Source: Spirosoma spitsbergense DSM 19989 (GTDB taxonomy: Bacteria > Bacteroidota > Bacteroidia > Cytophagales > Spirosomataceae). From it: DNA of 64,000 nt. The notes under the pieces are model-generated. The model was not told where the DNA came from. It saw only the letters and a program-made list of their open reading frames with translations, and searched no databases. This document shows positions 26,249 to 27,785 of the stretch, piece by piece (the stretch's first letter is position 1; every line of letters starts with the position of its first letter). The position numbers were made by a program, and so were the translations under genes. The stretch spans positions 138 through 64,137 of the forward strand of contig NZ_KB893559.1 in assembly GCF_000374085.1 (NCBI RefSeq). Reading direction: 5' to 3'.

Positions 26249-26920
26249 ATGAAAACACTCCAATTCAACGTATCCATCTGGGCATTGGCCCTGCTTACCG
26301 CCAGCAGTTCACTGGCAGCCTGCGCTCAGACCAGAAGGTCGGTACAATTCAGTTCGGCGCGTGTCTCCAATGCTACCGTGGTCGACTCATCGAGAATAAA
26401 ACTCCTGATGCCACTGCAACAAACGGTGACTAAGTTAAAGAAACTTTCGGCCACCGGTGACCCCGACTTCGACTATTCGTTCCAGGCCAAACTACAGGCT
26501 CAGGGGTTGCAGGACTTCCTGAAACAGGAAATTGAGAATGGCAAGGACAGTTCGCTTCAACAGATGGCTAAACAACTATTGGAAACGACAACGGCCGACA
26601 TAGCCACGATTGATGCGACCATGCGGCAACTGAAGCCAACGCGCCCTAATCAGACGTTTACGCAGCAGCAAGGCCAGAATATTGAGGCAATGAACCTGAA
26701 ATTGCAGAAAACCACTAGTAATGATACCTTGAGCAAGGATTTTGATTCCAACTTTGCCACACTGCTGATGGATCAGCGGCAGGATTCTATCGACATGGCT
26801 ACTACGTATCTGCAATACGGCAAAAATGACACGTTACGGGCGTATGCGCAACAGTTGGTGGATCAATCCAAAAAGCAGATGAATACGCTTAAGACTATGA
26901 CCAAGACAACCGTCAAGTAA
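26249..26920 (+). CDS. Secreted helical protein, DUF305/DUF4142-like
   Basis: The N-terminus is a signal peptide (SIWALALLTASSSLAAC) whose Ala-Ala-Cys end could also be a lipobox. The mature region has two similar helical halves: DFDYSFQAKLQAQGLQDFLK near residues 71-90 and DFDSNFATLLMDQRQDSIDM near 162-181. Each is followed by a run of the A..L....KKQM type. This recalls ferritin-like DUF305 or DUF4142 bundles. The His pair of metal-binding DUF305 proteins is not present, since the second half has RQ at that place. A terminator directly follows, separating it from the opsin homologue. Confidence 0.6.
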   Translation: MKTLQFNVSIWALALLTASSSLAACAQTRRSVQFSSARVSNATVVDSSRIKLLMPLQQTVTKLKKLSATGDPDFDYSFQAKLQAQGLQDFLKQEIENGKDSSLQQMAKQLLETTTADIATIDATMRQLKPTRPNQTFTQQQGQNIEAMNLKLQKTTSNDTLSKDFDSNFATLLMDQRQDSIDMATTYLQYGKNDTLRAYAQQLVDQSKKQMNTLKTMTKTTVK

Positions 26921-26944
26921 ACGTATTAATGACTAATTTTGACG

Positions 26945-26978
26945 ATGGCAGGTATCTGAAAATACCTGCCATTTTTTT
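26945..26978 (+). terminator. Intrinsic terminator abutting the next start codon
   Basis: ATGGCAGGTAT (26945-26955), loop CTGAAA, and ATACCTGCCAT (26962-26972) form an 11-bp perfect stem, and the T-run occupies 26972-26978. The ATG of the opsin-like gene starts at 26979, with no spacer. As read, the hairpin both ends the upstream gene and would mask the start region of the downstream one. Confidence 0.85.
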
Positions 26979-27785
26979 ATGGAAATAGCGGATTCCTTTA
27001 TTCCAACGGCTGGTGCGGTTGGCCTTTTACCCATGGTCACCTACTTTTTCATGGTTGTGGCTATGTTTATCTCTCTGGGCATTTTTATAACGGCCATAAC
27101 CCAAAACAGAAGCCAGCCCTCCAATTTGACCGTGCACCCTCAGCAGTTGGTGCCAACCTTACTGGCGGTTGTTTCTGCCAGCACCGGGCTGGTCTATTAT
27201 CTGATCCAGTTACACTACCATGATTTACTGGCCGAATTTCCCACTGTCAGCGATGCCACAGACCGCCAGACGCTTATTCGGGAATCCTACAATGCCATTG
27301 GACAATACCGGTACGTGGCGTGGTTTATGACTGCGCCACTCCTGCTGCTGCTGGTTATTGCCCCCCTCAGGCTCCCCTGGGAATCCAGCAAACGGCTGTT
27401 AACAGGGTTGTTGGCTGCCGCATTACTGATGGTTTTCACAGGCTACATCGGCCATCAACAAGTATCCTTCGATAACGAAATTCAGCCTGGTCCGAAGTTA
27501 GGCTGGGGCAGTATTTCATTAGTATGTTACGGATATATCTCGATTACGTTGTATCGACGCTGGAAAGCCAGCGGTCAGGCACAGGGGCACTTCCGTACCA
27601 TGGCCCTTTTATTCGTCGGTAGCTGGGGAATTTATTTGTTGGGGTATGGTCTGACTGTTTTACCCATTGATTTTAACTGGCTCCACATTACCTATACTAT
27701 AACGGATGTAACCAGCCAGATTGGCATTGGTCTGATCAGTTACGTAACCTGGTCAGACAGTAAGTCGATGACCTTAGCAAAGTAG
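26979..27785 (+). CDS. Type-1 (microbial) opsin homologue lacking the retinal-binding lysine
   Basis: Seven hydrophobic helices lie at about residues 17-40, 57-78, 108-130, 137-158, 174-192, 206-227 and 234-257. Helix C reads QYRYVAWFMTAPLLLLL (from 109). It keeps Arg111, Tyr112, Trp115, Thr118 and Pro120 of bacteriorhodopsin (R82, Y83, W86, T89, P91) but has Ala114 for the proton acceptor D85 and Leu125 for D96. Helix D ends with TGYIG, as in the proteorhodopsin/xanthorhodopsin group. Helix F keeps Trp216 and Tyr219. Helix G reads ITDVTSQIGIGL: Asp243 matches D212, but Gln247 (codon 27717-27719, CAG) replaces the Schiff-base Lys216. The protein should therefore neither bind retinal covalently nor pump protons. 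No carotenoid or retinal synthesis gene is nearby. Opsin homologues without the lysine are known in other prokaryotes; their function is unsettled. Confidence 0.85.
   Translation: MEIADSFIPTAGAVGLLPMVTYFFMVVAMFISLGIFITAITQNRSQPSNLTVHPQQLVPTLLAVVSASTGLVYYLIQLHYHDLLAEFPTVSDATDRQTLIRESYNAIGQYRYVAWFMTAPLLLLLVIAPLRLPWESSKRLLTGLLAAALLMVFTGYIGHQQVSFDNEIQPGPKLGWGSISLVCYGYISITLYRRWKASGQAQGHFRTMALLFVGSWGIYLLGYGLTVLPIDFNWLHITYTITDVTSQIGIGLISYVTWSDSKSMTLAK

Follow-up and report, generated by a model that had tools for sequence, protein, structure and literature searches.

What does a cell do with a rhodopsin that has lost the residue to which its pigment binds, and has such a protein been kept for a purpose? 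The question is raised by a 268-aa open reading frame (positions 26,979–27,785; all coordinates given for this stretch are on the forward strand) in the 64,000-nt stretch of the Spirosoma spitsbergense DSM 19989 genome analyzed here (the window). This protein belongs to the type-1 (microbial) opsin superfamily by both its Pfam profile and its seven-helix rhodopsin fold, as an earlier note written from the DNA letters had proposed, and its best PDB profile match is 4hyj, the Exiguobacterium sibiricum rhodopsin. In the alignment, Gln247 (codon CAG, 27,717–27,719) takes the place of the Schiff-base lysine (Lys216), Ala114 (27,318–27,320) that of the primary counterion/acceptor (D85), and Leu125 that of D96, just as the note had read them; these reference sites, and those below, follow bacteriorhodopsin numbering. 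The family residues R111, W115, T118, P120, W216, Y219, and D243 are retained, including the markers previously listed for helices C, F, and G. The only lysines, at residues 138, 173, 196, 262, and 268, lie at the hand-drawn helix ends or outside them, and a search of the membrane core for lysine returned none, which removes the possibility that a helix-G lysine sits elsewhere in the pocket. The protein thus carries Gln where retinal-binding rhodopsins have the helix-G lysine and Ala where outward proton pumps (DTD/DTE/DTK) have the acidic D85-type acceptor of helix C, and is a lysine-less opsin (Rh-noK in the broad sense), i.e., a type-1 opsin without the helix-G lysine.

Lysine-less opsins are a kind already known, since Rh-noK, haloarchaeal ORPs, and flotillin-associated rhodopsins have been described (PMC4915679; PMC10308929; PMC7714340), in agreement with the earlier note. 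Rh-noK (Yamauchi et al., 2019, as cited in PMC10308929) are XR-related, occur in marine betaproteobacteria in tandem with proteorhodopsin, and number ~600 among 5,558 rhodopsin genes according to the Guillardia paper (PMC7714340). They share with the protein described here a type-1 opsin fold without the retinal-binding lysine, but the Spirosoma loss took place inside a Spirosoma/Hymenobacter DTK lineage and beside a DUF305-like gene, and 12 of the 13 genomes concerned have no rhodopsin other than members of the clade. The haloarchaeal ORPs (Becker et al., 2016; PMC4915679, which also mentions fungal, cyanobacterial, and chlorophyte ones) are similar in that the lysine is replaced (by Arg, or by Leu and other hydrophobics), that some species lack crtY and brp, and that a light-independent role has been proposed, although they form a separate clade near the sensory rhodopsins. 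In flotillin-associated rhodopsins of freshwater organisms, which are thought to be retinal-less, the lysine site is occupied by Q, T, L, or R; these rhodopsins differ in that they belong to the proteorhodopsin family and adjoin a flotillin gene, and the genomes of the marine forms encode a pumping rhodopsin at another place (PMC10308929). A Pfam scan of ten neighbors in the window, two of which matched no family, detected no flotillin.

The distribution of close relatives indicates that the lysine was lost repeatedly. With the 268-aa opsin as query, matches at E ≤ 0.001 were obtained in 64 of 222 family genomes, and strong matches (E < 1e-50) in 29 of the 36 genus genomes and in two genomes of another genus; the latter matches comprise 35 clade members, 22 with the lysine and 13 without. 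Lys-less copies in 13 different genomes rule out the mutation of a single strain, which the earlier note had left as an alternative. The residue at the lysine site varies among them (L in four, I in four, Q in two, V in two, and C in one), and the D85 site holds Asp or Glu in all 22 Lys-bearing members and Ala, Gly, or Ser in all 13 Lys-less ones, such that loss of the lysine is always paired with loss of the carboxylate. The combination of Gln247 and Ala114, whose conservation the earlier note had asked to have checked, is not itself conserved among orthologs: it is common only to the nearest relative, Spirosoma luteum (G192), and the other Lys-less relatives combine L, I, V, or C at the lysine site with A, G, or S at the D85 site. 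In named genomes, a scan yielded 32 loci, of which 15 are from Spirosoma or from a MAG of the Spirosomataceae and the other 17 from Hymenobacter, Fibrella, one Cyclobacteriaceae, and one Sphingobacteriaceae record (L117, with no opsin ORF, is left out of the locus counts). All 16 readable loci outside Spirosoma keep the lysine, and 14 carry the DTK motif; two Hymenobacter loci, L130 and L132, have Ser in place of the Asp at the D85 site. These DTK rhodopsins, like 4hyj, share the fold of the Spirosoma protein and differ in having kept the lysine. An order-wide search matched 23 of 390 genomes at E ≤ 1e-25, and the six in another family all have the lysine.

On trees made without alignment columns 114, 125, and 247, the Lys-less state requires three changes. 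A single loss for all 13 copies is rejected (AU p = 0.00095), whereas a single Lys-less clade with G214 omitted is not (AU p = 0.0875), so these phylogenies support at least two losses within the clade. The lineages concerned are G214, which lies next to Lys-bearing G211 (support 95/96), G187, the G000/G192 pair, and nine copies that group together; these nine and the pair share an open fork with Lys-bearing G216. Provided that the lysine was never regained, three or four losses would be required, depending on the position of G216 in this fork.

The Lys-less copies are under purifying selection that is strongest at the extracytoplasmic half and the pocket aromatics, while the cytoplasmic half drifts. 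Estimated by the Nei-Gojobori method, dN/dS for five Lys-less pairs, in which two of the species appear twice, comes to 0.220, 0.136, 0.090, 0.090, and 0.131, and in the same order it is 0.154, 0.091, 0.036, 0.045, and 0.048 for the outer half and 0.294, 0.217, 0.163, 0.201, and 0.303 for the inner half; halves were assigned by bacteriorhodopsin topology, and the ratios are rough because some dS values exceed 1. Across the 13 Lys-less copies, site identity averages 0.68 in the outer half and 0.375 in the inner half, a difference reached by 0 of 5000 permutations, and the contrast is sharper in the loops (outer 0.74, inner 0.28). Forty-two positions are identical among these copies, and the retained features comprise an invariant R82/D212/Y185 core, the part of the helix bundle that faces outward, and the surfaces formed by B-C, D-E, and F-G. 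In the extracytoplasmic B-C region (residues 81–106; 27,219–27,296), modeled as extensions of helices B and C, residues D92, R96, Q97, R101, E102, and N105 are identical across the Lys-less copies that cover them, and the D-E loop, also extracytoplasmic (residues 158–172, GHQQVSFDNEIQPGP; 27,450–27,494), is strongly conserved. Selection of this kind, together with the conserved aromatics and outer loops, supports the suspicion in the earlier note that the protein has evolved a role and is not simply decaying at random.

Our leading explanation, held tentatively, is that this opsin, free of retinal, has been retained for a task in the cell envelope that does not depend on light, where it would serve as a docking or scaffold partner through its outward face. 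A light-independent role is probable, because the residue that holds the pigment has been lost and yet the outward face is preserved by selection, and normal photoreceptor function is very unlikely. Of the sensor, scaffold, or ligand-binding roles suggested earlier, envelope docking or a ligand fits the pattern, but signaling by the cytoplasmic face is less likely, because the constraint sits on the extracytoplasmic half. As the relatives indicate, the ancestor would have been a Lys-bearing, DTK-type opsin like those of Hymenobacter, some of which are encoded next to an enzyme that forms retinal; most Spirosoma copies came to lie directly behind a gene for a DUF305-like lipoprotein, and Lys216 and the D85 carboxylate would have vanished together more than once. 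The protein may now act at the membrane through its periplasmic face, with the neighboring lipoprotein as first candidate partner and the old pocket filled by a lipid or other hydrophobic ligand that serves folding or ligand sensing.

Comparisons with other sequence sets bear on this docking explanation in both directions. Mean identity in 16 Lys-bearing copies that lie beside the DUF305-like gene is 0.67 outside and 0.40 inside (0 of 5000 permutations). Twelve xanthorhodopsins have 0.74 outside and 0.82 inside, in favor of the explanation; in 21 ancestral-type sequences the contrast is weaker but has the same direction as in the Lys-less copies (0.63 and 0.54; 56 of 5000), which counts against it. 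Among five Lys-bearing clade pairs, G191/G209 has a strong asymmetry (outer dN/dS 0.104 vs. inner 0.770), two G194/G207 pairs and G112/G114 have little or none, and G185/G186, which lacks the two oxygenases and has the same neighbor, has none (0.132 vs. 0.119), again a point against. Four pairs of canonical rhodopsins have no consistent asymmetry, in favor of docking, and a lower dN/dS than the Lys-less pairs (0.013–0.043), which counts against it.

The candidate partner is a 223-aa helical protein encoded directly upstream on the same strand (26,249–26,920). A DUF305 domain (40.6 bits against a cut-off of 27; the DUF4142 match, at 26.3 bits, is below its cut-off) and a four-helix fold together place it with DUF305/CopM-like proteins, and CopM is its best relative by sequence and fold. 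Its N-terminus, judged by eye, resembles a lipoprotein signal peptide, with AAC at residues 23–25. The His pair of CopM, in its PHH segment, binds metal; at the aligned position the profile consensus has DQR, and the neighbor protein likewise has DQR and no such pair. Several relatives retain one His (DHR). A gene of this type lies directly upstream of all 13 Lys-less and 16 of the 22 Lys-bearing clade copies (28 of 34 loci in the table plus G208, seen in L106). Two gene contexts surround the pair, with insertions on either side and never between; an opposite-strand ORF is listed between the two genes in G213 only because the opsin is broken there. In the literature that we searched, no DUF305 or DUF4142 neighbor of a rhodopsin was found.

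This adjacency could be plain synteny. The DUF305-like gene occurs in all 36 genus genomes, including seven without a clade opsin, and therefore does not require the opsin, which weighs against the docking explanation. Opsin and partner distances are correlated when controlled for a nearby MATE gene (Mantel test, 26 of 34 loci with one control gene, omitting G213, G216, and others with no MATE gene in view; partial r 0.60 for the whole protein), and the correlation is suggestive of a partnership only, since it comes from a single control and holds for the inner half (0.50) as well as the outer half (0.60).

The two genes are separated by 58 nt, which hold a terminator-like hairpin (26,944–26,973) whose T tract runs into the opsin ATG (the whole element spanning 26,944–26,978). 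In all 27 paired loci (counted without G213 and G208), the end of an 11–24-bp stem falls in the interval from 8 nt before the start codon to 4 nt inside it; only some stems carry a T tract. Folding z-scores for 64 nt around the opsin start average −6.7, with 26 of 27 under −3, in comparison with 1 of 28 partner starts, 0 of 71 starts of five other neighbor genes, 1 of 16 XR/NaR starts, and none of five unpaired opsins (a sixth, L086, G197b, was omitted). In 12 aligned gaps (of 13 with a length of 63 nt), 89.5% of cells pair, against 34–44% in slid registers, and 31 cells are changed on both sides. Two of five covariation measures are weak against shuffles: the 17 further pair types are not above them (reached by 342 of 500), and the count of pairs with a both-sided change is reached by 23 of 500. 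Both-sided changes occur at 6 of the 12 inner pairs in seven Lys-less rows (3 of 12 without G197a) and at 4 of 12 in five Lys-bearing rows. Within the inner 12 pairs, G-U cells exceed A-C cells by 14 to 1, which disfavors a DNA palindrome and favors, on this base-pairing pattern, an element that acts as RNA of the sense strand. Rfam hits were sub-threshold only (L20 leader, 22.1 bits vs. 58.7), so no known RNA was recognized. Gaps to the conserved Met range from 56 to 81 nt in the 27 loci and are not all multiples of three, so that a conserved fusion, whether from a start codon farther upstream or by read-through of the stop, is ruled out.

Six of the seven opsin-less genomes also have a hairpin (z under −4) within 80 nt behind the partner gene, and the element is therefore probably the terminator of the partner gene, at whose base the opsin start is located. 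For the same reason, and because it lies between the genes, simple co-transcription in an operon with the upstream gene is doubtful. The hairpin at the start codon would keep opsin output low relative to the lipoprotein. A more specific version of the docking explanation, which appears unlikely in full, is that a light-driven pump became a retinal-free membrane protein that receives or scaffolds a ferritin-like lipoprotein in the periplasm, with its expression gated by the hairpin, which would serve as both terminator of the lipoprotein gene and start-codon lock.

The pocket allows a different use to be considered: the emptied retinal cavity, together with a xanthorhodopsin-type fenestration, could non-covalently hold a carotenoid, an apocarotenoid, or another hydrophobic ligand for storage, membrane ordering, or chemical sensing, which we regard as possible, if somewhat unlikely. 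Sixteen pocket positions were compared with the other membrane positions of the same half, and their identity in Lys-less copies is 0.85 vs. 0.59 outside and 0.70 vs. 0.41 inside (stratified permutation, 1 of 5000). Aromatics are retained at the W86 site (12/13) and the W182 site (12/13), and the Y185 and W189 sites both hold Tyr in all 13, while D115 and P186 are lost in all 13 and G122 has become Ser in nine. A pocket excess also occurs in the other sequence sets, with identities of 0.95–1.00 in the ancestral-type and canonical ones, so that, by these alignments, the pocket of Lys-less copies is kept but relaxed, and the kept residues, being equally or better kept in Lys-bearing sets, may serve folding instead of a ligand. 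With Kin4B8 residues numbered by hand count, G177 aligns with the fenestration Gly153 of helix E (kept in 12/13) and Y223 with Tyr204 (13/13), residues whose role in the fenestration is described in PMC13093654; the Gly makes this a candidate site for a xanthorhodopsin-type carotenoid antenna. The Thr157 fenestration site, on the other hand, holds Leu in 11 and Ala in two Lys-less copies. A lycopene cyclase homolog is encoded in 35 of the 36 genus genomes, a point in favor of a carotenoid ligand.

The known retinal-forming enzymes occur in only part of the genus. Homology searches located BCD in 10 and RPE65 in six of the 36 genus genomes, and 20 of the 29 with a clade opsin have neither retinal-forming enzyme, including 12 of the 13 with a Lys-less copy. 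In Hymenobacter, the gene next to the opsin belongs to one shared cluster at 7 of 13 readable loci, and one member of this cluster was confirmed as BCD, a retinal-forming oxygenase. Among 16 genus genomes in which all clade members have the lysine, eight have BCD or RPE65 and eight have neither; on this evidence, loss of the retinal enzymes can precede loss of the lysine. The absence of BCD and RPE65 is not proof that retinal is missing, because a functional rhodopsin is made by a bacterium without known retinal genes, according to the abstract of PMC7734400, and because G193 has a DTE rhodopsin and neither enzyme.

A rhodopsin without retinal might also be decaying slowly, disappearing lineage by lineage. 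This is quite unlikely, although dN/dS does exceed that of canonical rhodopsins and reaches 0.77 in the inner half of G191/G209, and the opsin is missing beside the partner gene in seven genomes. In addition, the Lys-less opsin of S. telluris (L085/L112) is split between frames, where a gene break and a sequencing error are indistinguishable; this copy counts against the docking explanation as well. Five Lys-bearing copies have no W182-type Trp (Ala in G191, G209, and G188, Gly in G199, and Leu in G208), and their pocket may be failing by another route. Against decay, the other 12 Lys-less copies are intact, outer-half dN/dS is only 0.036–0.154, 42 positions are identical, and the hairpin is kept at the start codon, with the both-sided changes in the seven Lys-less rows noted above.

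A sensor that passes a non-light stimulus to the cytoplasm or to a membrane transducer, as proposed for the haloarchaeal ORPs, would have a precedent in the many ORPs that adjoin HAMP/MCP transducers (a link that is common but not universal among ORPs; PMC4915679). It is nevertheless improbable here, given that the cytoplasmic loops (0.28) and half (0.375) are poorly conserved and that no transducer, kinase, or MCP family was matched among the ten scanned window neighbors.

Betaproteobacterial Rh-noK have been suggested to act as subunits that modulate a canonical rhodopsin of their own cell, and such a role would be conceivable in S. spitsbergense, the sole genome with a Lys-less copy that has BCD, RPE65, and a rhodopsin outside the clade: its canonical DTE xanthorhodopsin adjoins BCD (L001:1444–3373, contig C80), and its RPE65 homolog is on another contig. 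As a general explanation it is highly improbable, since the other 12 genomes lack a rhodopsin outside the clade, although G197 does have an additional Lys-bearing clade member alongside its Lys-less copy. That the protein is still photoactive, either with retinal bound by other means than a Schiff base or thanks to a novel retinal route, is extremely doubtful given the lack of both a membrane-core lysine and a D85-type acid, even though S. spitsbergense encodes BCD and RPE65 and the bacterium of PMC7734400 manages without known retinal genes.

If the more specific version of the docking explanation is correct, the conversion of a pump to a receptor or scaffold went through graded intermediates that survive in one genus. 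Every step of the series is represented in this genus and its neighbors: DTK opsins encoded next to a retinal enzyme, Lys-bearing opsins in genomes that have no such enzyme, and Lys-less copies of more than one origin. Related species can thereby be compared in matched sets. The outward-facing constraint, the fixed neighbor, and the start-codon hairpin are each directly open to experiment.

Other features were observed in these genomes. A sodium-pump rhodopsin has been described from S. oryzae. G193 encodes a rhodopsin (L102:6950–7717; Pfam 158 bits) with the lysine, a DTS motif, and Pro at the D212 site (PIVSK), and its start region folds strongly (z −6.0). At 14 loci, the opsin is followed in the same orientation by a gene for a ~298-aa protein that, judged by eye, is apparently secreted (L064–L070, L072, L078, L079, L081, L082, L084, and L085), with one gene in between at L067; it was not seen near the opsin in S. 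spitsbergense or S. luteum. At four Lys-bearing loci (L076, L089, L092, and L093), the next gene downstream of the opsin encodes a helical protein of ~150 aa that, by eye, is DUF2383/ferritin-like.
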